Source of the DNA: Qipengyuania pelagi
Lineage (GTDB): Bacteria > Pseudomonadota > Alphaproteobacteria > Sphingomonadales > Sphingomonadaceae
Direction of reading: 5' to 3'
Assembly: GCF_009827295.1 (NCBI RefSeq)
Contig: NZ_WTYD01000001.1
Coordinates: 930,001-994,000, forward strand
Length of the DNA: 64,000 bases
The notes under the pieces are model-generated. The model was not told the DNA's origin and did no database searches. It saw only the letters and a list, made by a program, of their open reading frames with translations. Shown in pieces: positions 4,372-32,954 of the stretch (the first letter of the stretch is position 1; each line of letters begins with the position of its first letter). The position numbers and the translations under genes were made by a program.

Positions 4372-4423
4372 TGGTGGACGCACTAGGGCTCGAACCTAGG
4401 ACCCGCTGATTAAGAGTCAGCTG
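4372..4423 (-). repeat. attL: displaced 3' half of tRNA-Lys (island left boundary)
   Basis: 52 bp identical to 32879-32930. It reads, on the minus strand, from the anticodon arm through the T arm to the encoded CCA of tRNA-Lys(CTT). The 5' half of the tRNA is absent: sequence beyond 4423 diverges at once. This is the footprint left when an element integrates in a tRNA 3' end and brings its own copy of that end. Confidence 0.92.
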
Positions 4424-4619: not shown

Positions 4620-6217
<1,598 letters not shown>

Positions 6218-6221
<4 letters not shown>

Positions 6222-7492
6222 TGGCTGGGTGGGTAATTATGACCCTGCGCGAAGCGGGTGTCACACTGATAGATTGTGTCCATGCTACCCCCGCTGCTGT
6301 CGAAAACGGCTATCCTTATATTGGCATTCCACAGATGAAGGATGGTCGATTAGACTTCGACGACGCTCGAAAAATATCTGACGCTGACTTCATAAAATGG
6401 ACGGTCAAAGCAAGGCCGCAGATGCACGATATCGTGCTTTCTCGCAGAACGAATCCCGGCGTTATTGCGCCTGTCCGTGATGACACGTCTTTCGCTCTCG
6501 GTCAGAATCTGGTGCTCCTGCGCGCAAGCGGTGAACGTGTCTCTCCCGGTTTTCTTCGCTGGCTGGCATCAAGTCCCCTCTGGTGGGATCAAATTTCCAA
6601 GTTCATCAATGTGGGCGCAGTATTCGATAGCTTGCGCTGTGCAGACGTTCCAAATTTTGAGTTGCCGGTGCCGCCAATTGCCGACCAAGAAGCAATCTCT
6701 GGGCTGCTCTCCGCCCTCGACGACAAGATCGAGCTGAATCGGCGGATGAACGAGACGCTGGAGGCGCAGGCGCGGGCGCTGTTCCGCGACTGGTTCGTCG
6801 ACTTTGGCCCGGTGAAGGCCAAGATGGCGGGCGGCACCCCCTATCTCGCGCCGGACCTCTGGTCCATCTTCCCCAACCGCTTTGACGAAGAGGGCGCGCC
6901 GAAGGGGTGGAAACGCAGCACTATCGGTTCCAGTTTCAACCTAACGATGGGTCAATCCCCACCAGGCGATACTTACAACGACGACGGTGAGGGCTTGCCG
7001 TTCTTTCAAGGTCGAACCGACTTCGGCTTCCGTTACCCTGAAAATCGGAAGTATTGCGATGCGCCGAAGCGCGTTGCTGAGGCAGAGGACACCTTGGTAA
7101 GCGTGCGTGCGCCAGTCGGCGATATCAATTTGGCATGGGAGAAAAGCTGCGTGGGGAGAGGGGTCGCCGCACTGCGGCATAAGTCGGGATCGCTAAGCTT
7201 CACGTATTATTCCGCCGCAGCCCTTCGTTCGAAATTGGAAATCTATCAGCATACAGGAACGGTATTCGGCGCGATTAATAAGAAGCAGTTTGAAGCACTA
7301 GAAACTGTCGAGCCTGACGCGGCCGTGCTCAAGGCCTTCGACGAGCTAGCAGGCCCAATCGATCAGAAAGTTCGAACCAATGAAACTGAGTGCCGAACTC
7401 TGACGCGAACCCGCGACCTGCTGCTGCCCAAGCTGATGTCCGGCGAAATCCGCGTTAGGGAAGCGGAGCGTCAAATTGAGGAGGCGCTCTAA
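6218..7492 (+). CDS. hsdS: Type I restriction-modification system, specificity subunit
   Basis: 424 aa with two target-recognition domains. TRD1 spans about residues 8-165 (with [20 protein letters not shown]), and the central conserved helix follows ([20 protein letters not shown], then [12 protein letters not shown]). TRD2 starts near [20 protein letters not shown], and the distal conserved helix is [17 protein letters not shown] with [13 protein letters not shown]. This is the usual half-subunit repeat geometry for a bipartite sequence. ATGA overlap with hsdM. TRD-coding DNA is visibly less GC-rich than the conserved helices, as expected for recombining TRDs. An alternative ATG at 6239 (MTLREAG) is possible. 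Confidence 0.93.
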
Positions 7493-7562
7493 GGCCGACC
7501 TTCCGATTATCGCAAATTCATTGACCGGCAACGATTGGCGATTATATGGCGGCAGATATCTC

Positions 7563-7611
7563 CCTTGGCGCTTCGGGGCCAAGGTGCGCGGCGATCCTTC
7601 GGGGTCGCCGC
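7563..7611. promoter_or_regulatory. Two tandem UUCG-tetraloop hairpins between hsdS and the NYN gene
   Basis: Hairpin 1 (7563-7584) has CCTTGGC/GCCAAGG arms and a cTTCGg apical loop with one internal mismatch. Hairpin 2 (7588-7611) has a 9-bp stem (outer arms GCGGCGA/TCGCCGC) closed by another cTTCGg. Only 3 nt separate them. No T-run follows directly, so a standard rho-independent terminator is unlikely; an mRNA stability, processing or attenuation element is more plausible. They sit about 90 nt downstream of the hsdS stop and about 90 nt upstream of the next gene. Confidence 0.6.
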
Positions 7612-7700
7612 TGCTTTATCAGGCCTCTAAAAAATTTCGCTTGTGTATCGCGCCAGATAATTCCTTTCTTGTTTAATCGCAGCACCCTACTACCATCTCC

Positions 7701-8327
7701 ATGCGGACAAGGGTCTATATCGACGGCTTCAATCTTTATTATGGATGCCTGAAGGGGCAGCCGAATAAATGGCTGAACGTCCACGCGCTGTGCTGCAATT
7801 TGCTGCCAAGAAACCAGATTGACCGGACGCGCTACTTCACCGCGCAAGTCAGCTCCAGGCCCAACGATCCTGATCAGGCAACACGGCAGCAGACCTATTT
7901 TCGGGCACTTGCGACCGTTCCTGAAATAAGTATCCATCTCGGCCATTTCCTCACGCATGAAGTGAAAATGCCGGATGCAGCCGCATGGCGGGCCGGCAAC
8001 TATCTCGCGCGGACGGTGATCAAGACGGAAGAGAAGGGCTCGGATGTCAATCTGGCTACCATGCTACTCGTGGATGCCTTCGACGATCTTTTCGACTGCG
8101 CAGTCATCATCAGCAACGATAGCGATCTCAAAGGACCGATTGAACAGGTCCGCAACAGATTTGGAAAGACCATTGGCCTCTTAAACCCGCAGAGGAATGT
8201 GAGCCAAGCGCTGAGACCGCTGGCGCATTTTATAAAGCCGATCCGCCCTGGCGCACTCGCAAATGCGCAATTTGCTGCCGGTCTGACCGATGCAGTTGGG
8301 CAATTTCAAAAACCAGCGAGCTGGTAA
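7701..8327 (+). CDS. NYN-domain (LabA/DUF88-like) putative ribonuclease
   Basis: 208 aa. The PIN-like NYN fold is shown by the N-terminal acidic motif RVYIDGFNLYYG and by the later motifs KGSDVNLATMLLVDAF and AVIISNDSDLKGPIEQV. The conserved Asp residues form the metal site of this nuclease superfamily. The LabA/DUF88 group is predicted to cut RNA. It lies between hsdS and the DUF262 gene of the type I operon on the same strand, which suggests an accessory defence effector. The 60-nt gap to the next gene and the hairpins upstream allow separate control. Substrate is unknown. Confidence 0.85.
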   Translation: MRTRVYIDGFNLYYGCLKGQPNKWLNVHALCCNLLPRNQIDRTRYFTAQVSSRPNDPDQATRQQTYFRALATVPEISIHLGHFLTHEVKMPDAAAWRAGNYLARTVIKTEEKGSDVNLATMLLVDAFDDLFDCAVIISNDSDLKGPIEQVRNRFGKTIGLLNPQRNVSQALRPLAHFIKPIRPGALANAQFAAGLTDAVGQFQKPASW

Positions 8328-8386
8328 GGCATTGCGAGGGATCGGGATTTGCGCAAGTTTGCAAACTACTGGTTACGTAGCAGGGG

Positions 8387-10156
8387 GTGCGCGTGAGTGA
8401 ATTGAAGACCTGTTTCAAGCGCGTCGATTATGACCTTTCCAGCCTGCTACATTTTATCGACGTTGGCGATATCGGTCTGCCGGATATCCAGCGTCCCTTC
8501 GTCTGGAAGAATGCCAAGGTCCGCGACCTGTTCGATTCCATGTATCGCGGCTTCCCGGTGGGATACCTGTTGTTTTGGGAGAATGCCGTCGAAAGCGGTG
8601 CGAAGCAGATCGGGCTTGATGAAAAGCAGCGGGATGTGCCCGCCCGTCTGATCGTGGACGGGCAGCAGCGGCTCACCTCGCTCTATGCTGTGTTTCGGGG
8701 CCAAAAGGTGCTCGACGAGAATTACGCTTACCGCCAGATCGAAATTGCCTTTCGCCCTAGCGATGGGAAATTCGAGGTGGCGGATGCTGCCATTCGGCGC
8801 GATCCGGAGTGGATCCCCAACATCTCGCAGTTGTGGTCATCGGGTGCTTCCAGCCGCAAGCTGGTGAATGGATTCATCGAAAAGCTGGGTCAGAAGGTGG
8901 AATTGAGCGAGGCCGAGGAAGAGCACATCGCGCACAATCTCGATCGCCTGTTCGACCTGCAGAAATACCCGTTCACGGCGCTGGAAATCGCGCAATCGGT
9001 CGAGGAAGAGCAGGTTGCCGACATCTTCGTCCGGATCAACAGCGAGGGGGTGAAGCTCAACCAGGCTGACTTCATCCTTACCCTGCTGTCGGTGTTTTGG
9101 GAAAAGGGCCGAACCGATCTCGAACAGTTCTGCCGGGCGGCACGGATCCCGGCGAAGGGTTCGGACACGTCCCCGTTCAACCATTTTCTCGAGCCGGACC
9201 CTGACCAGTTGCTGCGCGTGGCGGTCGCGTTGGCCTTCAACCGTGGCCGTCTGAAAAGCGTGTATCAGGTTCTGCGGGGCAAGGATCCGGACACCGGCGA
9301 ATACGATCCACAGCGGCGGCAGGATCAATTCGACATCTTGGCGGAGGCGCAGGAGCACGTCCTCAACCTCAACAACTGGCACCAATATTTCAAAGCGCTG
9401 GTGGGCGCGGGCTTCCGGAGTGGCGAACTCGTTTCGTCCACCAATGCGCTGCTGTTTGGCTATGCCTTCTACCTGATCGGTAAGGTTCGCTTCGGTCTGG
9501 CCGAACATCAATTGCAACGCGCAATCGGTCGCTGGTTCTTCTTCGCCTCTCTAACCGGTCGCTACACCAGTTCGCCCGAAACCGTGATGGATGGCGATCT
9601 CGCCCGCATACGCGAAATCGATACCGGCGAAGCCTTCCTTTCGTGGCTCGACGGAGAGATCACCAGCGAGCTGACCAACGATTTCTGGCAGATCACCCTC
9701 CCATCGCAGTTCGACAGTTCGTCTGCCCGCAATCCGCAGCTGTTCGCATTTTTTGCAGCGCAGAATCGGCTGGGCGCACCAGTGCTGTTCTCGCACAAGA
9801 CCGTTTCCGATATGCTGGACCCTACCATCAAGACGACAAAGAAGGCGCTGGAGCGGCACCATCTGTTCCCCAAAGCCTGGCTTGAAGCGCATGGCGTAAG
9901 CGACCAGCGGATGCGCAACCAAATGGCGAATTACGCTCTGGTGGAATGGCCGGACAATATCGATATCAGCGCCAAGGCGCCACAGGACTATGTGCCGCAG
10001 ATCAGGCTTCGCTTCTCCGATGAGGATTGGGCCGAGATGCATAGGTTCCACGGCCTGCCCATTGGATGGGAGGCGATGCCTTACGACCAGTTCCTTGGGC
10101 AACGACGTGATCTTATGGCGGGAGTGGTGCGTCGCGGCTTCGAGAAGCTCGCCTAG
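8387..10156 (+). CDS. DUF262 (GmrS-like) / C-terminal HNH (DUF1524/GmrD-like) protein, single-chain
   Basis: 589 aa. The N-terminal DUF262 domain starts with [20 protein letters not shown] and carries the hallmark [16 protein letters not shown] (around residues 86-101), then [20 protein letters not shown]. The C-terminal part has an HNH/DUF1524-type motif, [16 protein letters not shown] with [14 protein letters not shown]262 plus DUF1524 is the composition of GmrSD-type type IV restriction enzymes, which cleave DNA with modified cytosines using NTP. The start is GTG at 8387 (or GTG at 8393) after a G-rich ribosome site. Its TAG shares one base with the GTG of hsdR, so it is translationally coupled to the type I nuclease. 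Confidence 0.85.
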
Positions 10157-13100
10157 TGGGCAAGTTCGTCGAAGACCACGTCGAGGAAGCGGCGCTCGAA
10201 TGGCTCGGCGAGCTGGGTTGGACGATCGCGCACGGGCCTGATGTGTGTCCGGACAGCCCACAGCCTCTGCGCGCTGCCTACCAAGATGTGGTCTTGCTCG
10301 ACCGTTTTCGCGATGCAGTCGCGCGGCTGAACCCATCAGTCCCTGCTGAATCGCGCGAAGAGGCCATGCGTCGCGTTCTAGCAAGCGAAACGCCATCGCT
10401 GGTAGAAGAGAACCGGCGGCTTCATCAATACTTGGTCGAGGGCGTGCCCGTCGAATTCTACGACGACGGCAATATGCGCGGAGACCGGGTTCGCCTGATC
10501 GATTTCGGCGGTAGCGACGGGTTCGATCACAATGACTGGCTGGCAGTGAATCAAGTCACGGTCATTGAGCAGGGACACAATCGCCGCCCGGACGTGGTGC
10601 TGTTCGTCAATGGCCTGCCTCTGGGTGTTCTCGAACTGAAAAACCCAGGCGATGAGAACGCAACCTTGTCCGGCGCCTTCAACCAACTCCAAACCTACAA
10701 GGCGCAAATCCCTTCGCTGTTTCGAACCAATGCTGTCCTGGTCACGTCTGACGGCATCAAGGCGCGAGCCGGTTCTCTGACTGCAGATGAAGAGCGCTTC
10801 ATGCCCTGGCGTTCGGTCGATGGCGAAACCATCCCGCCTACAAGCGATCCCCAGCTCGAAACCCTCATTAAAGGGGTGTTTGAGCGGGGCAACCTGCTTC
10901 GCCTGCTGCGCGATTTCACAGTGTTTGGCGATACCGGCAAGGGGATTGTCAAAATTGTCGCGGCGTATCACCAGTTCTTCGCTGCTCAGAACGCCTTGTC
11001 AGCAACGCTTCGTGCCTTGCCCTATGCGACTGCTAGAGCCGATGGCTCGTTACGCGAAAATCCGCTCAACTTTGGTCTGGCAAGTCAGACGGAGCAGGCG
11101 CCGGGCGACAAGAAGATCGGGGTCATCTGGCATACGCAGGGTTCGGGCAAGAGCCTGCTGATGGCGTTCTACGCAGGTCTGCTCGTTCGCGATCCTGCAT
11201 TGGAAAATCCCACCATTGTAGTCATCACGGACCGCAATGACCTCGACGACCAGCTGTTCGGCACCTTCTCCATGTGCAGCGATCTCATCCGTCAGAAGCC
11301 GGTTCAGGCCGACAGCCGCGATGATCTGCGCGTGCAGCTTGACCGAGCAGCGGGCGGGGTGATCTTTACCACGATCCAGAAATTCGCGGCGACCGAGGGC
11401 GCGGACGATTTCGCGCCTGTAAGCGAACGCCAGAACATCATCGTGATGGCGGATGAGGCGCACCGTTCGCAATACGGCTTTCGCGCGCGTATCGATCCGC
11501 GAACCGGCAAGCGGGCTTACGGCCATGCGAAATATCTGCGTGACGCGCTGCCCAACGCTTCCTTCATCGGCTTTACCGGAACCCCGATCGAAAAGGACGA
11601 TGTGAACACCCCAGCGGTATTCGGCGACTATGTCGATATCTACGATATCAGCCGCGCGGTCGAAGACGGGGCCACCGTGCCGATCTACTACGAAAGTCGA
11701 TTGGCGCGCATCGAATTGCCGGAAGATCAGGTGCCACTTATCGATGCTGAAGTGGAGGAACTCACCGAGGACGAGGCTGCCACGGATCAGGAAAAGCTGA
11801 AGGCTCGATGGGCCGAAGTCGAGCGTTTAGTGGGCTCAAAGGCCCGGTTGAAGCTCGTCGCAAACGATCTGATTGAGCATCTCGAACGAAGGCTGGAGGC
11901 GTTGGACGGCAAAGCAATGGCCGTTTGCATGAGCCGCCGTATCTGCGTGGCGCTCTACGACGAGATTGTTGCTCTTCGTCCGGAGTGGCATTCCGACGAT
12001 GTGTCGCAGGGCGCGGTGAAAGTTGTGATGACCGGCAGCGCATCGGACCCGCAGGAATGGCAACCGCACATCGGCGGGAAGGCGCGCCGAGATGAGCTGG
12101 CTAAACGTGCCAAAGATCCGACTGACCCTCTCAAGCTCGTCTTGGTGCGCGATATGTGGCTAACCGGCTTTGATGCTCCGTCGATGCACACGATGTATAT
12201 CGATAAGCCGATGCGCGGCCATGGTCTGATGCAGGCAATCGCACGCGTAAACCGCGTTTTCCGCGATAAGGAAGCAGGGCTTGTCGTCGACTACATCGGT
12301 ATTGCCCAAAACCTAAAAGCAGCGCTCGGCATCTACTCCCCATCTGACCGTGAAAAGACTGGTATCGACGAGAAGCTGGCGATCCGGGTCATGCTCGAGC
12401 GGTTCGAAATCGTCAGCGCCATGTTCCATGGTTTCGATTGCGGGCCTGGAATGCATGGAACACCGAGCCAGCGATTGAAGTGTCTCGCCGAAGCGCTCGA
12501 GTGGATTTTGGCTCGTCAGCAAGATGCAGCGCAGAAGGAAGCAACCGACGAAGCAAGGAAGGCCGCACATCGACGCTTCCAAGACGCGGTTTTAGCCTTA
12601 AGCAAGGCTTTTGCCTTGGCGTCTGCGAGCGATGAGGCGAAGGCCATCCGCGACGTGGTCGCTTTCTATCAGACTGTGCGGGCCGCTCTGGTCAAAAGTA
12701 GCGGCGCGACCAAATCTCGGAAGGATCGCGAACTCGCGGTTCAACAGCTTATCGACAGATCGGTCGTCTCGACGGAAATTGTCGATATACTGCAGGCGGC
12801 GGGTATGGCCTCGCCAGACATCTCGATCCTGTCCGACGAGTTCCTTGCCGAAATGCGCGATAGCGAGCGGCCCAATCTGGCGCTTGAAGCCCTTAAGAAA
12901 TTGCTCGCCGATAAGATCCGGTCCAGGTTACAAACGCACGCTGTCGAAAGCCGGAAATACTCCGAAAGGTTGACGGCCGCGATCGCGCGCTATCACACGA
13001 ATGCGATCAGTACCGTCGAGGTGCTTCAGACGCTGATCGAACTCGCCAAAGAAATACGCGAGAAGCTGGCGCGCGGCGAAGAGGGAGGGCTATCCGACGA

Positions 13101-13368
13101 AGAGATCGCCTTTTACGAAGCGCTGGCGGATAATGAGAGCGCTGTCGACATCATGGGCAACGACAGTCTCAAGATCATCGCTGCTGAACTGGTCGAGAAT
13201 CTCAAGGCAAACGCCAGCGTCGATTGGGCGCATCGCGAATCTGCTCGTGCGAGGATGCGCGTGCTGGTGAAACGCATCCTGCGCAAATATGGTTATCCGC
13301 CGGACCTGCAGGACGCAGCCGTGCAGACCGTGATTCAACAAGCAGAATTGCTCGCAGCTGCTTGGTAG
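10156..13368 (+). CDS. hsdR: Type I restriction enzyme, endonuclease/translocase subunit
   Basis: 1070 aa, normal length. The N-terminal PD-(D/E)xK nuclease domain shows [20 protein letters not shown] followed by KN (metal Asp and E-x-K). The SF2 translocase follows: Walker [14 protein letters not shown] (about residue 330), [12 protein letters not shown], the DEAH box [21 protein letters not shown], and the helicase C half with [20 protein letters not shown] and [15 protein letters not shown]. The C-terminal helical region contacts HsdM. It starts with GTG overlapping the DUF262 stop. With hsdM/hsdS it makes a complete type I system interrupted by two accessory genes. Confidence 0.95.
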
Positions 13369-14802: not shown

Positions 14803-15174
14803 ATGTCGTCGGAGTTGAGTTCCTATCAGCGGCGGGTGGAGCAGTGGCTCGACGCTTGCTTCCCGCCGGCAGTCCGTTCCAATCGGGCGGAGAGAACCCA
14901 TCGCTTCCTGGAAGAGGCGCTCGAGCTCGCGCAGGCTAATGGGTGCTCGCGTGATGACGCGCTGGCGCTGGTTGAATACGTGTTCGGCAGGCCGGTCGGG
15001 CGGCCTGATGAGGAAGTCGGAGGCGTGATGGTGACCTTGGCGGGGTTGTGCAGCGCATCGGGCATCAACATGGACGACGCCGGCCACCGGGAGCTTGAGC
15101 GAAATTGGGATCGCATCGAGACGATCCGCGCGAAGCAGCAAGCCAAGCCCCACGGGTCGCCGTTGCCGCAATGA
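14803..15174 (+). CDS. MazG-like all-alpha NTP pyrophosphohydrolase
   Basis: 123 aa. The core RAERTHRFLEEALELAQANG provides the first acidic ExxE helix. EYVFGRPVGRPDEEVGGVMV with TLAGLC provides the second; here the usual ExxD aspartate appears as Gly. This variant, including the closing RAKQxAKPxxSPLPQ tail, resembles a MazG-like family I associate with alphaproteobacterial prophages. All-alpha NTP-PPases hydrolyse (d)NTPs to NMP plus PPi; the T4-type dCTPase/dUTPase relatives feed dNMPs to base-modification enzymes. Same strand as, and 50 nt from, the next gene; first gene of the cassette. Substrate is not predictable from sequence, and the D-to-G change may lower activity. Confidence 0.72.
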   Translation: MSSELSSYQRRVEQWLDACFPPAVRSNRAERTHRFLEEALELAQANGCSRDDALALVEYVFGRPVGRPDEEVGGVMVTLAGLCSASGINMDDAGHRELERNWDRIETIRAKQQAKPHGSPLPQ

Positions 15175-15223
15175 GGGGCGGCGGCATAGCGATGCCCGTC
15201 TGCGGCGCGAAGACGAACGGAGC

Positions 15224-15562
15224 GTGCGCTTCTTGATCACAGTTTCGTTCCACGACCAGCTGCTCCACGACATCTGCACTGACCTTGATCGTGCGGAGCG
15301 GCAATATGGTCGAGTGGAGGCGCAGGCGCTCGTCACTTTCATTTCCGATGCGCACGCGCTCGATCACGCTGAGCAGTTGATCGACCTGCATGCCGGCGAG
15401 ATCATTGTGCTGGACGACGATTCCCTTCGTGTCGACCTTAGTGCAGACTATCGCGCAGCCCTTGTAGTGGTCGGAACACGCTTTAGGAGAGCTGACGATG
15501 GCCGGATTCGGTGGGACAGTGTGATGAGGTTGAAGCTGGTGGAAGTGTCGAGGGTGCCTTGA
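15224..15562 (+). CDS. Hypothetical protein of the modification-like cassette
   Basis: 112 aa from a GTG at 15224 (VRFLITVSFHDQLLHD); the frame is open further upstream but overlaps the MazG-like gene there. Not recognised. It has a long amphipathic helix (QLLHDICTDLDRAERQYGRV) followed by beta-rich segments (GEIIVLDDDSLRVDLS, AALVVVGTRF). No signal peptide. Its stop TGA overlaps a possible TTG start of the ImmA/IrrE gene (TTGA), which supports a coupled operon. Confidence 0.55.
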   Translation: MRFLITVSFHDQLLHDICTDLDRAERQYGRVEAQALVTFISDAHALDHAEQLIDLHAGEIIVLDDDSLRVDLSADYRAALVVVGTRFRRADDGRIRWDSVMRLKLVEVSRVP

Positions 15563-16671
15563 GGGAAGCGCACGAGTTCATACCCGACTGGTTTTCGAAG
15601 CCCGGCGATTCGATACGGGCCCTCATGCAGCGGCGCGGTGTCGGTCCTGAAGACGTCGCCGTTCGTCTCTCAGGTGGAATGGCCTCGCTCCGCGGGTTGC
15701 TCGACGGGTCGCAACCGATCCAAGCTGATGACGCTAGCGCTCTAGCCGCATCGCTGGGCGGCACTGCGACGTTTTGGCTCAAGCGGCAGGAGAACTACGA
15801 CGGCGCGCTGGAACGGGCGGTCGATCGCGCGTTCGCGACAGACGCCGACGACTGGCTCCTGATTCCTGTGCCGGGAGCGAAGCCGCGGGGGCGGATGTCG
15901 GAAGACACCCGCAGGTCCGAGGTGCGCCGCCGCCTGGCGTTCTTCAACGTCGGCACGATCGCGGCGTGGGAGACGCGCTACGGCCGGATCCGATCGGAAA
16001 CCCTGTTTCGCACGTCTCAGGCATTCAGCTCGGATGACCACGCCGTTCTGATGTGGCTTCGTGAGGGAGAATTGAGCGCAGACATGGTTTCGACGCGTCC
16101 GCTGCATGTCGATAATCTGCTGGATAGGATGGAGGCGATCAGGAAATTGTCGCTCATCCGCCGGCCCGAACTCTTCCTGCCAAAGCTCAAGTCGCTATGC
16201 GCCGAGGTGGGCGTCGCCGTCGTGCTGCAGCGCGCGCCGCAGGGCTGCCGCGCGTCGGGCGCGAGCCGAATGGTCGCCTCGGACAAGGCGATGATCCTGC
16301 TGAGCTTTCGCGGCCTGTCTGACGATCGCTTCTGGTTCACCGTGTTCCATGAGCTCGGCCACGTCGTCCTTCATCGCGCGCAGACGTTCGTGGATAGCGA
16401 CATCGACGCCGAGGCGCAGGATGACACCGAACGCGAAGCCAACGACTTCGCGTCGCGCTGTATCATACCCGAACGTCGTGAGGACGAGTTCGAGAGGTTA
16501 TACGCGGCGAAGGATGCGGTCGTTCGGTTCAGCGTGTCGACCGGCGTCGCGCCAGGTCTGACCGTCGGGCAGATGCAGCACCGGCGGATGATCCGTCCCG
16601 ATCAGATGAACTTCCTCAAGCGCCACTGGCGCTGGGACGACCTCGCGGCGCTATTCGATCAGCCGAGATAA
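15511..16671 (+). CDS. XRE/HigA-type HTH - ImmA/IrrE zinc peptidase fusion
   Basis: 386 aa from the ATG at 15511, or 370 aa from TTG at 15559, which overlaps the upstream stop; the shorter form is attractive. Residues ~30-100 form a HigA-like HTH (KPGDSIRALMQRRGVGPEDV, GGTATFWLKRQENYDGALE). The C-terminal half carries HELGH at 280-284 and a downstream EREAND Glu (309) as zinc ligands, the signature of ImmA/IrrE metallopeptidases. ImmA of ICEBs1 and IrrE of Deinococcus cleave HTH repressors, so this may be the switch or the repressor of the cassette. It converges on the pyrophosphorylase-like gene with a 13-nt overlap of the ends. Confidence 0.85.
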   Translation: MGQCDEVEAGGSVEGALREAHEFIPDWFSKPGDSIRALMQRRGVGPEDVAVRLSGGMASLRGLLDGSQPIQADDASALAASLGGTATFWLKRQENYDGALERAVDRAFATDADDWLLIPVPGAKPRGRMSEDTRRSEVRRRLAFFNVGTIAAWETRYGRIRSETLFRTSQAFSSDDHAVLMWLREGELSADMVSTRPLHVDNLLDRMEAIRKLSLIRRPELFLPKLKSLCAEVGVAVVLQRAPQGCRASGASRMVASDKAMILLSFRGLSDDRFWFTVFHELGHVVLHRAQTFVDSDIDAEAQDDTEREANDFASRCIIPERREDEFERLYAAKDAVVRFSVSTGVAPGLTVGQMQHRRMIRPDQMNFLKRHWRWDDLAALFDQPR

Positions 16672-17573
16672 TGGACGAACTTGGCGGGGCTCTTCTGCCA
16701 GTTGCAAAGTGCGTCCTCCATAATCGCCATGCCGACCTTAAGCCGAAGGTCAAGGGCATCGAGCTTGCCCTGTATCGAGCCGAGGGGCGTCGCGGACTTG
16801 CGGGCTCCATTCACTAGTAGCCGCGCGCCGGCCTCCGGTCCCGTAGCGCCCTTTAAATAGGCCGACCCAGCTTCGATCGGGGCCAAACCGTAGCGTCCCA
16901 CGAGCGACAGATAGTCGAACTTGCCGAGCCGCGCGAAGGTGCCGATCTTCATCTCTTTGTATAGATGGTCGAATATGACGTGCGGGTCATTGCCAGCGGC
17001 GTGGACGGCGTTCGCGAAGAACCCCGCATGTCCGGCTGGACCAATCCAAGCAAGATAGTCGGCAACCGTCTTGCGCATGGGGATCTGAGCATTCGGTCGT
17101 AGGCTCGTGTATTTCCGGTGGTTGCCGAACTTACCCCGTATCTGCTGCCAGTTGGCGTCGAGCCAGTCATAGAACGCGGCGGGGTTGGCCGTGACATTGG
17201 CCCAGTTCCATGTGCCGGTCCCCAGCTTGCCATAGACGTCTTGGAGACGCAGCCACTTGGATCCGACCGGGCGCGCGAAGTGGGTCATCAGAAAGATCAG
17301 CCAGCCAGCCTCGTCGATGTTGCCTTGCTGCATATGGTGGGCGACGGCGCGTTCCGCGTCAAAAGCCGAGCTGTTGGGATCAGCTCGCGCGGCCGAGACA
17401 GGCTTCGCCTGAACTTGCTCGTAGTAGTCTTCCCGACGCTGGCTGGCGACGAACTGCAGTGCGAGGGTTTCGATCGTCGCCTGATTCACGAGGCCTGCCA
17501 GCCCAAGGGCGGTCTTCGCGATCGTCAGCTCCGTTTCTAGACGCTTGCGCTCCACATCTCTACTTGGCCACAT
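16659..17573 (-). CDS. Alpha-glutamyl/putrescinyl thymine pyrophosphorylase clade 3-like protein
   Basis: 304 aa from the ATG at 17573 (MWPSRDVERK), which overlaps the stop of the TS-like gene by 14 nt; a GTG at 17555 just after that stop is an alternative. Recognised by family motifs in order: ADPNSSAFDAERA (64-76), WLIFLMTHFA (91-100), QDVYGKLGTGTWNWANV (111-127), GKFGNHRKYTSL (147-158), FDYLSLVGRYGLAPIEAGSA and GATGPEAGARLL. In phages, relatives replace the diphosphate of pyrophosphorylated 5-hydroxymethyluracil in DNA with putrescine or glutamate; clade 3 is bacterial and its chemistry is not established. Coupling to a TS-like enzyme suggests a base-modification pathway. Confidence rests on recalled family sequences, not an alignment. 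Confidence 0.68.
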   Translation of the reverse strand: MWPSRDVERKRLETELTIAKTALGLAGLVNQATIETLALQFVASQRREDYYEQVQAKPVSAARADPNSSAFDAERAVAHHMQQGNIDEAGWLIFLMTHFARPVGSKWLRLQDVYGKLGTGTWNWANVTANPAAFYDWLDANWQQIRGKFGNHRKYTSLRPNAQIPMRKTVADYLAWIGPAGHAGFFANAVHAAGNDPHVIFDHLYKEMKIGTFARLGKFDYLSLVGRYGLAPIEAGSAYLKGATGPEAGARLLVNGARKSATPLGSIQGKLDALDLRLKVGMAIMEDALCNWQKSPAKFVHYLG

Positions 17574-18678
17574 CGCCCGCGGTTCCTGATTCTGAATCGC
17601 CGACGGCCTTTTTGGCGGCGGCGCGGATCGGTAGATCCTTTCTCCCATCGACATACGGCTTATAGGATGCCGACGCCAGTTCACCGCGGATCTCTTCGAG
17701 CCGGCGAACATGCTCCTCCTTGCTGCCGGATTGGCGTCGCGACCAGAATACTTGCAGCAGGCGGACGATGTCACCCCAGTAAGGGTCGGACATTTCGCTG
17801 GCAGGTTTGACCCGTTGCCCCTCGCGCAGTCGGCCCTCGATCTCCAGCAGTTGCGGAATCAGATCGAAGGGGTTGCCGGTGGGCATCGGGGGCATGGCAT
17901 GGACTTGCTGGACCCCCTCTTCGAGATAGGCGCGCATGTCCGGCAGATATTTCTCATAGACATGCATACTGCCGACATATTGATAGTATTCGCCGAGTTC
18001 AGCCTCGAGCCGCCGCGCCATCATCTCCTGGATCATTGTAAAGCAGAACACATCATGGGGCAGGCCCCAATAGGCGTCGTTCGATCTCAGCGTGACGGAC
18101 AGGTGCAGCCGGTCGTCGCGTAGGTGGAACTGCAACGTGGTCGTGCAGGGAATCTCCTTGTGATCGGTCACGATATCCTCGGCGTTGAAGAGCTGGACGA
18201 CCGCGCGTCTGGATCCGGGTTTTCGCTGCAAAAGTTGTTCGATGCTGTCGAACTGGTTGATCTCGCCGCGCATCGCCATGAGCCGCGGACCGTAGGCCCC
18301 TTCCAGGACGCCATCGACAGCGTCGTTTTCGTATTCGGAGACGTAGGGCTTGATGAAAGCCAGTTTGTCGGAGCCAGAGAGATACCACAGCAGCTCCCCC
18401 AACGCGCTGAACGGCTTCCCCCGGTTTTCAGATCGACTGATCCTCGCTCGTGGATTGGTGATCCGCAGCGCGACGCCTAGCAATTCGACAGTGCCACCGA
18501 GCTTGTCCCCACGGGTTCCGCCACCGTGCTGCCGCCCGTGCTTGTCGATGTCCTGATAGAGCTGATGCAGGACCGCATCCAGGCTTTCGCGCTCGATCTC
18601 CAATAGCCAGCACCGCTCACGCGGCCTCCCCTTCAACCGACTATGGAAAGGGATCGACGGAATTGTTAGCTGCGTCAA
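17560..18678 (-). CDS. Thymidylate-synthase-like enzyme with dCMP-type (Asp) specificity residue
   Basis: 372 aa starting at a TTG (18678) without a strong ribosome site; the true start may differ. The TS fold is clear: LGELLWYLSG (94-102), SRR (156-158), IPCTTTLQFHL with nucleophile Cys178, TLRSNDAYWGLPHDVFCF (196-213), and GSMHVYEKY (His239, Tyr241). Against E. coli ThyA, Cys146, Arg166, Ser167, Asp169, His207 and Tyr209 are kept. Asn177 is Asp209 here, the residue of T4 dCMP hydroxymethylase and of the engineered TS that accepts dCMP. Trp80 is Tyr116. A ~120-residue C-terminal extension is not TS-like. It is therefore unlikely to be housekeeping ThyA; dCMP hydroxymethylation or methylation is predicted. 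Confidence 0.82.
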   Translation of the reverse strand: MTQLTIPSIPFHSRLKGRPRERCWLLEIERESLDAVLHQLYQDIDKHGRQHGGGTRGDKLGGTVELLGVALRITNPRARISRSENRGKPFSALGELLWYLSGSDKLAFIKPYVSEYENDAVDGVLEGAYGPRLMAMRGEINQFDSIEQLLQRKPGSRRAVVQLFNAEDIVTDHKEIPCTTTLQFHLRDDRLHLSVTLRSNDAYWGLPHDVFCFTMIQEMMARRLEAELGEYYQYVGSMHVYEKYLPDMRAYLEEGVQQVHAMPPMPTGNPFDLIPQLLEIEGRLREGQRVKPASEMSDPYWGDIVRLLQVFWSRRQSGSKEEHVRRLEEIRGELASASYKPYVDGRKDLPIRAAAKKAVGDSESGTAGDVAK

Positions 18679-28855: not shown

Positions 28856-29509
28856 TTGCGGCTCTGCGTGTGCAATGCGGGTAGGATGGATTATGCCCTA
28901 TTTCCTGATCTTCTTGATAAACTGGCCAAAATTGAGGCGCTAGGAAGATCTGCGCTGACCCCCGCCAGTGAGAACGTGGCTGAACTGAAGCGGCAGGCAG
29001 CGGCGGCCGGAAAGCGCCGCGCGCGTGACGAAAAGCGCTACGAGTTGGGCGGTCTACTTCTGACGATCGGTTTCGAGAACATCGATTACTACGCGCTTTA
29101 TGGTCTTATGGCCCATCCCGATCACCTGCTGAAATGGTCCATCGAAGCCCGACAGAGTAGCGCAACGCAGGACTTGGCGCGACTTATCGAGCATATTTTC
29201 GATGACGATAGACGCGCTGAAAGATGCGCGGAGTGGGGCCGGTATCTATCATGGACACGCATGCGCACCCTGTATGAGGCCGAGGTCACATCCTTCATCG
29301 CATCTGGAAAGGCGGGCGCAAAACAGCGTTGGAGGTGCGATCCGGTTTCGTCCAAACAGCTTTATCTGATCGCTCAGATCTGCAAGCTGGAGGGCATTGC
29401 AAACCCGAATATCGCGAAGAAGGGATGCGCTTTTGACTGGCTGTATGAGAGAGACGGCAATCCGCGATATTTTAAGCGTCCGGCTCCATTACCGCTGGAG
29501 CTATCATGA
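28856..29509 (+). CDS. Hypothetical protein of island right-end module
   Basis: 217 aa, or 207 aa if the ATG at 28886 (MDYALFPDLL) is used. Not recognised. The N-terminal ~60 residues are helical with a basic stretch, AAAAGKRRARDEKRYELGGL, that recalls the short TraD/TraC-like conjugation proteins of alphaproteobacteria, but the rest does not follow them. The middle is Arg/Glu-rich and helical; the C-terminus has KQLYLIAQICKLEGIANPN and GCAFDWLYERDGNPRYF. No membrane segment. ATGA overlap with the next gene shows coupling. Confidence 0.6.
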   Translation: MRLCVCNAGRMDYALFPDLLDKLAKIEALGRSALTPASENVAELKRQAAAAGKRRARDEKRYELGGLLLTIGFENIDYYALYGLMAHPDHLLKWSIEARQSSATQDLARLIEHIFDDDRRAERCAEWGRYLSWTRMRTLYEAEVTSFIASGKAGAKQRWRCDPVSSKQLYLIAQICKLEGIANPNIAKKGCAFDWLYERDGNPRYFKRPAPLPLELS

Positions 29510-29721
29510 TCGCCATACCTGTCGACGTCGAAGAAGCGATGGCGATGCTCCATCTTAAAGAAAGCGAGTTCGAACGAGCAGTCAAAGCGGTGGAAAATGC
29601 ATTGGCTGATGGGAGAACCGGCGAGCACGAGTTAAACACCATGAACGAGCTTGCCATGGAACTCGGCGAACTCGCGGAACAAATCTCAGACCAAATCCAG
29701 AAAAAATTACAATCTTTGTAG
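29506..29721 (+). CDS. Small helical protein coupled to the preceding gene
   Basis: 71 aa, mostly acidic helix (ESEFERAVKAVENALADG, NELAMELGELAEQISDQIQK), probably a coiled coil. Its ATG overlaps the upstream TGA by 4 nt, a layout typical of interacting partners such as toxin-antitoxin or effector-chaperone pairs, though no such family is recognised. Confidence 0.6.
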   Translation: MIAIPVDVEEAMAMLHLKESEFERAVKAVENALADGRTGEHELNTMNELAMELGELAEQISDQIQKKLQSL

Positions 29722-29807
29722 GCCGCGGACGCGATTATTAAAATCTATGTTCACCCTGCGATGGCAAGATCCGAAGTCAAGCTGGAACATCAGAGGACAA
29801 AAACCCG

Positions 29808-31370
29808 ATGGCCAAGAAAGAAATTCGCAGGACTAAGGCCGATCTGGCGCGGGAAGGGCACTACCACAACCGGGCGGCGGCAGCGGACAAAAGGAATCCT
29901 GTCAAACCGCGATCGGAGAAAGAGAAGGCCACAAAAAAAGCGAGCTCAAAAAAATCGCGAAAGAACGTTGTGTTTTTGATGATGGATCATAGTCTTCTTA
30001 GCTCAGGTCTGCAGTTACCGAAGGACGTTTCACAAACGATCGCTGAACTCGTCGATAAATTCACCCGCGGATCGCAGAATACGTCGACTCACTGTTTTTC
30101 GCTCTTTAATCAATCGATATCATCGCTACGCAAGATCCCTATCGGCCTCCTTGGGGATAAGGAATGCCTTCTTCCGGATGAACTTCTTCCGACGGGAGAA
30201 ACAGAGATTTTGGCTCACTGCCGTTGGATGATCTCCACCCAAGGATCAGATGACTACATCAATTTCGTTGTTTCTGGCTGGCCGTCGACAATTGTCAAAA
30301 GACACGAAGTTCGAAAACGCTTCGGAGCGGATCCGAACGTAGGTTCTTCCCATATTCACAAGCATGCATCTAATTTGGCGCGATTGGAAGAAACGGATTT
30401 CGACCTTTATAGAGCGATCATTTCCGGTCGGCATCGGAGTGCGATGCAAATACTACAAAGAGCCGAAGTGGGGTCGAAAGTGGCAGCGGCGGATACGCGC
30501 CTCCTGATCGCTGAGCACGGTCTTCTTTGGTGCGCGCGCGATGTTCAGTTGATTACAGCGCGGTCCGGCAAAGCAGAGGAAAATCCTCTAGAAGCGCTAG
30601 CCAGCACGAGCATGACCCAATTGAAGCCGGAGAACATCGCTAACCAGGCCCGTCGGCTATTTATCATCCTCAAAAAGATCGTCGCCGACTACACAACTTC
30701 GCTGGAGCATACCGGCGGTAAGCCTCTGGCAACGATCGACAATGTGCCAGAAACCATGCTTCCGCTGTATCGGCAGATTGAAGCTGTAGCGAAATTCCAC
30801 GGGATCAATCTGACAAATTCCATCGGTCAACTCGACCAGCTGATTGAATACATCCGCATAACCCCAATCCCGGGAAACGTAGCTTGGCGTCAAATGCTCG
30901 ACAGCTCGGTTAGCGAGAATGGCCTCCCAAGCAGTTTCAATGCCTTATGGTTCTCCGGCCTCTCGATCACCCAAGCGGTTTCCGTTTCAATTCTTCGATA
31001 TCTGCAAAGCGAACGGGAAATTTTGAATCTTATTGACGAGCGCGATGGAGAGCATCCCCGAAGATTTAGAGACCATACCGCAATGCCTCCTTTCGACGCA
31101 GAAAAATTGGGCGCGGACTGGTTTACTGCGGCGAAGGATATGCTGTTCATGCTGCGGCGCGACATTTTGCAAGACAAAGATTTCAAGGACGAGGGGTATG
31201 ATTACCCGGACCGTGAGCCAGCTGCAGGCCGGAATCCAATCCAGATTGCGAAAGCTTTCGTAACCGAGAGAGGCCAACGCGCCATGACCGACTACGAGAG
31301 CGAGTTCGGAGATGTTAGGCGCACGTTTTATCTGTTGGACGTCATCCCGGAACACCGGCTGGCTCTTTAG
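29808..31370 (+). CDS. Large hypothetical protein, possible island cargo effector
   Basis: 520 aa, not recognised. The first ~55 residues are very basic and disordered (KPRSEKEKATKKASSKKSRK), which fits nucleic-acid binding. The rest is a soluble, mainly helical protein with no Walker, HEXXH, HNH or helicase motif that I can see. Local features are HCFSLFNQSISSLRKIPIG, FGADPNVGSSHIHKHASNLA and HRSAMQILQRAEVGSKVAAA. The DNA is clearly less GC-rich (about 50%) than the rest of the window, indicating a different origin. It lies 86 nt after the coiled-coil gene and ends 206 nt before the small integrase-leader gene. Confidence 0.6.
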   Translation: MAKKEIRRTKADLAREGHYHNRAAAADKRNPVKPRSEKEKATKKASSKKSRKNVVFLMMDHSLLSSGLQLPKDVSQTIAELVDKFTRGSQNTSTHCFSLFNQSISSLRKIPIGLLGDKECLLPDELLPTGETEILAHCRWMISTQGSDDYINFVVSGWPSTIVKRHEVRKRFGADPNVGSSHIHKHASNLARLEETDFDLYRAIISGRHRSAMQILQRAEVGSKVAAADTRLLIAEHGLLWCARDVQLITARSGKAEENPLEALASTSMTQLKPENIANQARRLFIILKKIVADYTTSLEHTGGKPLATIDNVPETMLPLYRQIEAVAKFHGINLTNSIGQLDQLIEYIRITPIPGNVAWRQMLDSSVSENGLPSSFNALWFSGLSITQAVSVSILRYLQSEREILNLIDERDGEHPRRFRDHTAMPPFDAEKLGADWFTAAKDMLFMLRRDILQDKDFKDEGYDYPDREPAAGRNPIQIAKAFVTERGQRAMTDYESEFGDVRRTFYLLDVIPEHRLAL

Positions 31371-31575: not shown

Positions 31576-31773
31576 ATGACAAAAACGAGCTCGACAATTC
31601 GTCAAGCCAACCTGGCACGCGCTATTCGCGCAGTTCAAGCTTGCGGGCTTGAGATACAACGAGTCGAGCTTAGCTCAGATGGCTCAGTCAGCCTCATAAC
31701 CAATCAAAATACTGTGGCGGAAATCTCTCCATTTGATCAATGGAAGGAGAAGAAAAATGCGCGTCCGTCTTAA
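31576..31773 (+). CDS. Small protein overlapping the integrase start
   Basis: 65 aa from the ATG at 31576 (MTKTSSTIRQANLARAIRAV); the frame is open back to a TTG at 31483. Pattern: one helix, then a two-strand stretch (EIQRVELSSDGSVSLIT). It overlaps the integrase start by 17 nt. Short proteins in this position are common in alphaproteobacterial integrative elements and may act as excisionase-like or regulatory partners; that role is inference. Confidence 0.6.
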   Translation: MTKTSSTIRQANLARAIRAVQACGLEIQRVELSSDGSVSLITNQNTVAEISPFDQWKEKKNARPS

Positions 31774-32821
31774 AGGGATAAACCGCGTCAAAAAGCGATT
31801 AGCCGATGGATCGCAGGTCGTATACTACTACGCATGGAAGGGGGGTCCTAGACTAAAAGGGAATCCGGGATCGCCCGAATTCATCGACAGTTATAATTCG
31901 GCTTTGGAAAATCGCCGCGTCAAACCGGATGGACTGCTTCAGAGCGTATTAAGAAAATATCTCGCGTCTCCGGATTTTCTCGGACTAGCTGATAAAACAC
32001 GGAGGGATTATAGTCGTCACATACGCGCCATTGAAGATGATTTTGGTGACTTTCCGCTTGTTGCGCTGAGCGATAAAAAGGCCCGAGGCGAGTTTCTTGA
32101 GTGGCGCGACAAGATCGGTCTAACAAATCCTCGTCAGGCAGACTATCGTTTCAGCGTCCTGGCGCGTGTTCTCTCTTGGGCCGTCGATCGCGGGGATGCC
32201 CCGGCAAACCCATGCAAGAATCCGGGCCGTTTATATCACTCAGAGCGCGTGGATAGCGTCTGGACACCCCATGACGAAACCGCTTTTTACGAGCGAGCTC
32301 CTGAGCACCTTCATCTGGCCCTTATGCTGGCTCTTTGGACCGGGCAGCGCCAAGGGGATTTACTCGCCCTCACATGGGCAGGTTATGACGGAAGGCGCAT
32401 TCGCCTCAAGCAGAAGAAAACAAACAGGCGCATAGTCATCCCGGTGGGCACCCCACTTCGACGTGCACTGGATGCTCTCAAATCGAAGGTAAGCAGCCAC
32501 AGTGACGCTTTGGATTTGAGCTCGTCGACAATTCTAACAACGCAAAAGGGGAAGGCTTGGACTGAGGACGGTTTCAGAACGTCGTGGAGCAAAGCATGCG
32601 CTAAAGCTGGCGTCGCTGATGTAACCTTCCATGACCTTAGAGGCACTGCGGTCACCAGGCTCGCATTGGCAGGATGCACGTCTCCAGAGATCGCCACAGT
32701 CACTGGCCATTCGCTCAAGGACGTGAACGCCATCTTGGATGCACACTATCTGAGCCGCGATTCGCAGCTCGCTGAAAGTGCCATCAGGAAGCTGGAGAAG
32801 AGGGTGGAATCTCCCAACTGA
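31757..32821 (+). CDS. int: Tyrosine-type site-specific integrase of the island
   Basis: 354 aa from the ATG at 31757, which has the ideal site AAGGAG 9 nt upstream; an upstream in-frame ATG at 31733 is less likely. N-terminal SAM-like core-binding domain about residues 55-150. The catalytic domain has ALWTGQRQGDLLALTW (first Arg), the KKTNRRIVIPV beta-hairpin Lys, HDLRGTAVTRLA (HxxR) and GHSLKDVNAILDAHYLSRD (His and nucleophile Tyr). It lies 57 nt from the tRNA-Lys attachment site and reads toward it, as expected for the enzyme that inserted the element. Confidence 0.93.
   Translation: MRVRLKGINRVKKRLADGSQVVYYYAWKGGPRLKGNPGSPEFIDSYNSALENRRVKPDGLLQSVLRKYLASPDFLGLADKTRRDYSRHIRAIEDDFGDFPLVALSDKKARGEFLEWRDKIGLTNPRQADYRFSVLARVLSWAVDRGDAPANPCKNPGRLYHSERVDSVWTPHDETAFYERAPEHLHLALMLALWTGQRQGDLLALTWAGYDGRRIRLKQKKTNRRIVIPVGTPLRRALDALKSKVSSHSDALDLSSSTILTTQKGKAWTEDGFRTSWSKACAKAGVADVTFHDLRGTAVTRLALAGCTSPEIATVTGHSLKDVNAILDAHYLSRDSQLAESAIRKLEKRVESPN

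Positions 32822-32878: not shown

Positions 32879-32954
<76 letters not shown>

Follow-up and report, generated by a model that had tools for sequence, protein, structure and literature searches.

A mobile four-gene module in Qipengyuania pelagi that couples a predicted dCMP 5-hydroxymethylase and an amino acid:DNA transferase superfamily enzyme to a PD-lambda-2-like gene pair

We analyzed a 64,000-nucleotide (nt) stretch of the Qipengyuania pelagi genome (contig NZ_WTYD01000001.1, positions 930,001 to 994,000; hereafter the window), focusing on a five-gene cassette that a first-pass annotation, made from the sequence alone, had proposed to be a bacterial counterpart of phage DNA base hypermodification. 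All five open reading frames (ORFs) were found in the window where that annotation had placed them:

14803-15174, plus strand: MazG-like accessory protein, 123 amino acids (aa), with EExxE kept and Gly at the Asp of the MazG ExxD motif
15233-15562, plus strand: SMALL, a RelE/HigB-fold partner protein, 109 aa, with a conserved TTG start at 15233
15511-16671, plus strand: XRE helix-turn-helix (HTH) and ImmA/IrrE (M78) metallopeptidase, termed XRE-ImmA (Peptidase_M78 6e-13, PD-Lambda-2_B 3e-20)
16659-17573, minus strand: aGPT-Pplase3/amino acid:DNA transferase superfamily enzyme, termed aGPT3, 304 aa, assigned by Pfam and fold
17560-18678, minus strand: thymidylate synthase (TS)-superfamily protein, predicted deoxycytidine monophosphate (dCMP) 5-hydroxymethylase of the MilA type (MilA 5b6d, E 2e-66)

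The two operons converge, with exactly 13 nt (16659-16671) common to the ends of aGPT3 and ImmA, as had been stated before; TS and aGPT3 overlap by 14 nt. The XRE-ImmA ORF opens at GTG 15511, yet its likely conserved start is TTG 15559, where the stop of the small gene and the ImmA start share 4 nt (TTGA). For the TS-like protein, a start at TTG 18603 is implied by an identical 347-aa database protein (P0179).

Scanning genomes for aGPT3 returned 38 loci (numbered L001 onward), whose gene content was called by profile search. Of these, 35 contained TS (L017 in two pieces), 36 XRE-ImmA and 34 the small gene; the MazG-like gene was found in 19, all of them alphaproteobacterial records. Contig ends truncate L004, L009, and L037, and in L038 and L039 an aGPT-like gene occurs without the other members. 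A further 26 loci (17 viral contigs, six of eight plasmid hits and three species genomes) contributed TS in 25, ImmA in 24 and the small gene in 20 cases. With L001 (the window itself), the interrupted L017, the cut L037 and the duplicates L053 and L055 left out, the final set comprised 61 aGPT3 loci, window included. In 51 of these, TS, aGPT3, the small gene, and XRE-ImmA are all present in the same convergent order, and 27 of the 51 add the MazG-like gene; the earlier expectation that TS-aGPT pairing would recur across genomes was thus borne out. The ten incomplete loci were cut by contig ends (L004, L009, L048, L050, L051), lacked TS (L038, L039, L065), or gave no detectable small gene (L061, L062). 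The stop codons of aGPT3 and ImmA lie between -22 and +46 bp apart in 50/51 complete loci, the exception being L005 with 1015 bp, and pairwise distances correlate for all six gene pairs (r 0.86–0.93; permutation maximum 0.19–0.27, 500 permutations each). The complete loci span three phyla, with representatives in Alpha-, Beta-, and Gammaproteobacteria, a Flavobacterium metagenome-assembled genome, and Arthrobacter; a Leptospira plasmid shows the same cassette order by annotation. Approached from the TS side, viral-contig loci of at least 40% identity carried aGPT3 in 17 of 17 cases (a few being near-duplicates), as opposed to none of seven at 38% or below. The four genes are a conserved, co-inherited, mobile unit with a common residue signature, and we consider it nearly certain that this unit is a functional one.

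The dependence between its two halves is one-sided. Among the best 80 of 90 viral-contig loci surveyed from the ImmA side, 22 lack aGPT3 but have both the small gene and ImmA, so that the HigB-fold/ImmA pair can exist apart from the two enzymes; in the four of these loci that were examined, the Pfam-named neighbors were of phage or mobile-element type (terminase, YQBQ, DUF6712, DnaG-like, DUF4138). The converse, a TS-aGPT3 pair without the HigB-fold/ImmA pair, was not seen in these scans except at contig ends.

Some loci deviate in ways worth recording. The Leptospira interrogans plasmid p1 carries a spirochete cassette with aGPT3 annotated in two pieces (L088:6795-7728), and in a Mesorhizobium cassette TS is interrupted by an insertion (L017:8353-9420). 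In distant cassettes (L030, L031, L032, L035, L036, and also L048, L051, L054, L055, and the Leptospira plasmid), a protein family of 261–329 aa lies between TS and aGPT3; it had no convincing Pfam match. Of 7998 database candidates scored, 2602 matched this family, and those of the best 120 that bear a name are called 'hypothetical'. DUF4031 proteins, possibly another accessory, adjoin the cassette at L030:8806-9111 and L032:2781-3092 (by Pfam) and at L049:2805-3101 (by profile).

The TS-like enzyme does belong to the thymidylate synthase superfamily (Pfam Thymidylat_synt, E 1e-24), as annotated at first, but it looks like a cytosine hydroxymethylase of the MilA type and not like an enzyme of a thymine pathway. 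When its family profile was compared with all solved structures, MilA (5b6d) was matched over positions 15–288, far ahead of the best true thymidylate synthase in the same search (4e-28). According to the MilA paper, MilA is the cytidine monophosphate (CMP) 5-hydroxymethylase of mildiomycin synthesis and prefers ribose; its Asp186 reads cytosine, and Ala176/Ser together with Lys133/Arg decide between ribose and deoxyribose. Across 58 TS-like family members, the catalytic Cys and the RSND Ser are invariant (58/58 each), and Asp occupies the site of E. coli TS N177 in 57 of 58 (L060 was not matched by the pattern). As the base-reading Asn is replaced by Asp, we rejected thymidylate synthase proper; catalytic Cys plus cytosine-reading Asp is the signature of MilA/T4-type cytosine hydroxymethylases. 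Asn was found at this site in the controls PaMx11 gp51, an E. coli plasmid protein and a Sinorhizobium protein, and MilA relatives from Priestia and Streptomyces have Ala and Asp at the determinant sites. Since the family has Ser in place of MilA Ala176, a deoxyribose substrate appears favored; the third site, MilA Lys133, is occupied by Arg in the window protein and by either Arg or Lys in other members. Taken together, family and residues probably make the enzyme a dCMP 5-hydroxymethylase. Database searches gave 3723 matches at E ≤ 0.001 among 7994 candidates scored, not all of which need be family members, and wherever one of the best 120 bears a name, that name is thymidylate synthase.

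More distant TS-like proteins occur in other surroundings. The plasmids pGeo12a of Geobacillus (L083) and pSaLI10 of Streptococcus salivarius (L084) encode a related cytosine-type TS and a second, divergent TS-like protein next to PqqD-like proteins, an AAA ATPase, and QueA-like enzymes; together these may form a nucleoside or peptide pathway not described before. A uracil-type TS accompanied by metallophosphoesterase and MazG-family genes is found on E. coli pEC2_1-4 (L085) and Sinorhizobium fredii pSfreGR64b (L086), the latter with an additional uracil-DNA glycosylase; these two look like parallel nucleotide-modification systems.

For the 16659-17573 protein, the aGPT-PPlase3 match proposed earlier is present (PF18746, E 7e-123, 409.9 bits against a curated cut-off of 25), although this match is nearly circular, as the model describes the same clade; the name is a clade label and the function predicted. 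The protein also matches the amino acid:DNA transferase family ADDT (PF18724, 3e-69), and its fold matches PUGT, gp46 of phage PaMx11; profile and fold agree in placing it in the amino acid:DNA transferase superfamily, whose defining reaction, transfer of an amine or amino acid to an activated 5-methylene base in DNA, is a putative activity here.

The small gene, left unassigned in the first-pass annotation, can now be assigned by fold comparison to the RelE/HigB fold as the partner of the XRE-ImmA protein, without a Pfam match of its own. The latter has the HTH (weak in Pfam) and M78 domains as annotated, with HExxH intact in 57/57 proteins, but appears to be more than the repressor-relieving peptidase envisaged at first, namely one half of a PD-lambda-2-like pair. 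PD-lambda-2, which is known to block a virus, is composed of a HigB-like protein, an XRE-peptidase and a third gene. Fold, the PADLOC match to PD-Lambda-2_B and gene order all conform to a HigB-like A followed by an XRE-peptidase B. PADLOC gave no match to component C among the cassette proteins, and the sole conserved third gene beside the pair is the MazG-like gene. SMALL and XRE-ImmA thus look like a toxin-antitoxin-like PD-lambda-2 A/B pair.

As to the MazG-like protein, annotated as an NTP pyrophosphatase, the similarity is weak (no Pfam match; the MazG PHROG reached only E 0.09), and the motif of the enzyme is incomplete. The metal-binding motif of MazG is EExxE...ExxD, of which EExxE is kept, while the Asp of ExxD is Gly. 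ExxD occurred in none of 27 proteins; an EVGG-type site was detected by pattern in 26, and the 27th, L018, mis-trimmed in that count, also shows EVGG. The gene, carried by 27 of the 51 complete loci, is an accessory.

The cassette is located on a 28.5-kb island bounded by exact 52-bp direct repeats, one at 4372-4423 and the other inside tRNA-Lys at 32879-32930. Repeats, tRNA-Lys, integrase, and type I restriction-modification (RM) genes confirm the tRNA-borne island beside restriction genes that had been described:

4372-4423, no strand: left island end, an exact 52-bp copy of the 3' part of tRNA-Lys
4620-13368, plus strand: island neighbors, context outside the cassette (this and the next five by Pfam)
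4620-6221, plus strand: HsdM
6218-7492, plus strand: HsdS
7701-8327, plus strand: NYN protein
8387-10156, plus strand: GmrSD_N protein
10156-13368, plus strand: HsdR
31733-32821, plus strand: island tyrosine integrase (Pfam Phage_integrase, 7e-18)
32879-32954, minus strand: tRNA-Lys(ctt), the attachment site (ARAGORN and 52-bp repeat)

Besides the five-ORF cassette, the island cargo thus includes type I HsdM/HsdS/HsdR, NYN, and GmrSD_N, the gene for the last of these sitting inside the type I RM operon. Judged by eye, metal efflux and chromate transport genes are also carried, and two ORFs near the integrase (217 and 520 aa, 28856-31370 of the window) had no Pfam match. Among genus relatives, 38 of 41 genomes were matched and 30 loci returned, 29 after removal of the window's own. 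At 14 of these 29 the site is empty, a 4-kb stretch holding the left flank along with rodA and a match to tRNA-Lys; none of the 29 showed a cassette or integrase match. The cassette proteins are 88–95% identical to those of Aurantimonas (ImmA 95%, TS 91%, MazG-like 91%, aGPT3 88%), which belongs to another order, while the best named relatives of the flank-encoded RodA are from Qipengyuania (80% identity); to judge from these identities, the cassette was acquired by recent horizontal transfer. aGPT3 is rare, being carried by 2/41 genomes among the window's relatives and 4/398 genomes sampled from the phylum (window included in both), as well as by 8/72,556 plasmids, with no match among 50,697 phage records.

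A role in defense is probable, and our preferred, still tentative, reading is that a horizontally moving two-operon module makes a 5-substituted deoxycytidine, most likely directed against phages, under control of the PD-lambda-2-like pair. By family and residues, the TS-like enzyme would use methylene-tetrahydrofolate to convert dCMP to 5-hydroxymethyl-dCMP (hm-dCMP), with dCMP possibly supplied from dCTP by the MazG-like protein where present. Family and fold suggest that aGPT3 would then act on hydroxymethylcytosine, in the simplest case attaching an amine or amino acid to its 5-methylene carbon within DNA; that DNA cytosine ends up aminated, or hypermodified in some other way, we take to be plausible, albeit somewhat short of probable. 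The convergent HigB-fold/XRE-ImmA pair, whose linkage is observed, may restrain the module until it is itself released or activated by infection, whereupon infected cells would make modified cytosine or be acted on by the toxin. In its boldest form, which we consider unlikely, this would be a mobile immune module spread over several phyla that, upon infection and switched by HigB-fold/ImmA, places hypermodified cytosine (5-aminomethyl-type, derived from hm-dCMP with no need of the phage kinase) in DNA or in the nucleotide pool, an unrecognized cytosine branch of DNA hypermodification that cells would direct against phages and that the annotation as thymidylate synthase would have concealed.

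Several findings weigh against this preferred reading. In phage thymidine hypermodification (M6, PaMx11), a TS homologue, a 5-hydroxymethyldeoxyuridine DNA kinase, and an amino acid:DNA transferase take part, and the pathway requires the hydroxymethyl kinase. In line with the kinase already noted as missing, the kinase helical subunit HMUDK_hel was detected in 0/5 aGPT3-bearing bacterial genomes as opposed to 2/2 phage controls; the HMUDK_HMUD1 profile gave 0/4, with controls silent too. Apart from the five cassette genes, every gene cluster is confined to five loci or fewer, hence no kinase making hydroxymethyl-dCTP travels with the cassette. Profile searches of solved structures with aGPT3 found neither PUGT nor DUF2419 (best E 0.27, unrelated), direct profile comparison with PUGT gave only a 16-column match, Foldseek returned no PDB match at E 0.001, and the second-best fold, weaker than PUGT, was DUF2419, a queuine-salvage enzyme (Qng1). 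MilA-type enzymes elsewhere adjoin nucleoside 2-deoxyribosyltransferase genes, no operator shared upstream of both operons was found, and the MazG-like gene lacks the motif Asp and was not found in 24/51 complete loci. Finally, GmrSD includes enzymes that cut DNA with modified cytosine, and the GmrSD_N protein on the same island could clash with a modified host genome.

The chief rival, to which we assign a low though real probability, is a nucleotide drain: hm-dCMP made from dCMP by the TS-like enzyme would lose its base to aGPT3, which would behave as a glycosidase like DUF2419 or as MilB does, and the phage would be starved of dCTP, which the MazG-like protein, where present, would feed in. 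Such a scheme needs no kinase and fits both the pairing of MilA with MilB and the neighbors of related genes. On the other hand, the Pfam profile similarity of aGPT3 is to amino acid:DNA transferases, PUGT and phage ADDT outrank DUF2419, hydroxymethylation ahead of hydrolysis seems a detour, and about half of the complete loci showed no MazG-like gene. Less probable is that the cassette marks the DNA of its mobile element (island, plasmid, or prophage) against restriction in new hosts, as in T4, with HigB-fold/ImmA serving as an addiction or exclusion module. Its residence on an island, plasmids, and viral-type contigs, its recent transfer, and the 22 HigB-fold/ImmA loci without aGPT3, with phage or mobile-element genes beside the four examined, would agree with this notion; yet phage records gave no matches, the whole host genome would be altered, and the joining of TS/aGPT3 to the ImmA pair in uncut loci holding both enzymes is left unexplained.

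We regard it as quite improbable that hm-dCMP feeds a diffusible or intracellular nucleoside analogue poisoning phage or competitor polymerases, comparable to mildiomycin, bacimethrin, or viperins. The MilA kinship of the TS-like enzyme and the antibiotic-type neighbors of related enzymes speak for such a route, but the lack of a sixth gene in more than five loci implies that no transporter or tailoring gene is conserved, and the residues favor deoxyribose where MilA prefers ribose. A chance meeting of two independent neighbors, for which the defense-rich island context might be invoked, is refuted by the 51 complete loci with their common order, closely spaced stops, and correlated histories, and retains a negligible probability. 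Should the preferred 5-substituted deoxycytidine reading be correct, a family labeled thymidylate synthase would be a dCMP hydroxymethylase in a mobile, probably anti-phage module, built of enzyme types described to date chiefly in viruses and antibiotic producers. Base hypermodification, which shields phages, would then serve bacteria too, as a weapon or as a mark; the drain, if true, would add new chemistry to a known defense principle.

Among known systems, phage thymidine hypermodification likewise combines a TS-superfamily with an ADDT-superfamily enzyme, PF18724 being found in both and aGPT3 sharing the PUGT (PaMx11 gp46) fold. The cassette differs in its cytosine-type residue (uracil-type in the phages), in having no kinase helical subunit, in its joining to the ImmA pair, and in its residence on bacterial islands and plasmids with no match in phage records; we rejected membership in the phage pathway on the first two grounds. 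The DefensePredictor paper (Science 2026) counts thymidylate synthase and 5-hydroxymethyluracil kinase among its validated defense domains and names aGPT-Pplase and MazG as predicted, unvalidated domains. Compared by text and domain names, the aGPT-Pplase and TS domains of those systems recur here without the 5-hydroxymethyluracil kinase. With MilA and T4 dCMP hydroxymethylase, the TS-like enzyme has in common the catalytic Cys, the cytosine-reading Asp and, for MilA, a long alignment, but it has Ser for Ala176 and is partnered by aGPT3 instead of MilB. The queuine-salvage enzyme DUF2419 resembles aGPT3 in fold, less so than PUGT, and without a sequence match in a search that misses PUGT too. 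PD-lambda-2 shares with the cassette a HigB-fold gene followed by an overlapping XRE-ImmA gene; the HigB-fold partner described here is missed by the PADLOC models, and no third gene of that system was found, the cassette having the convergent enzyme pair instead.

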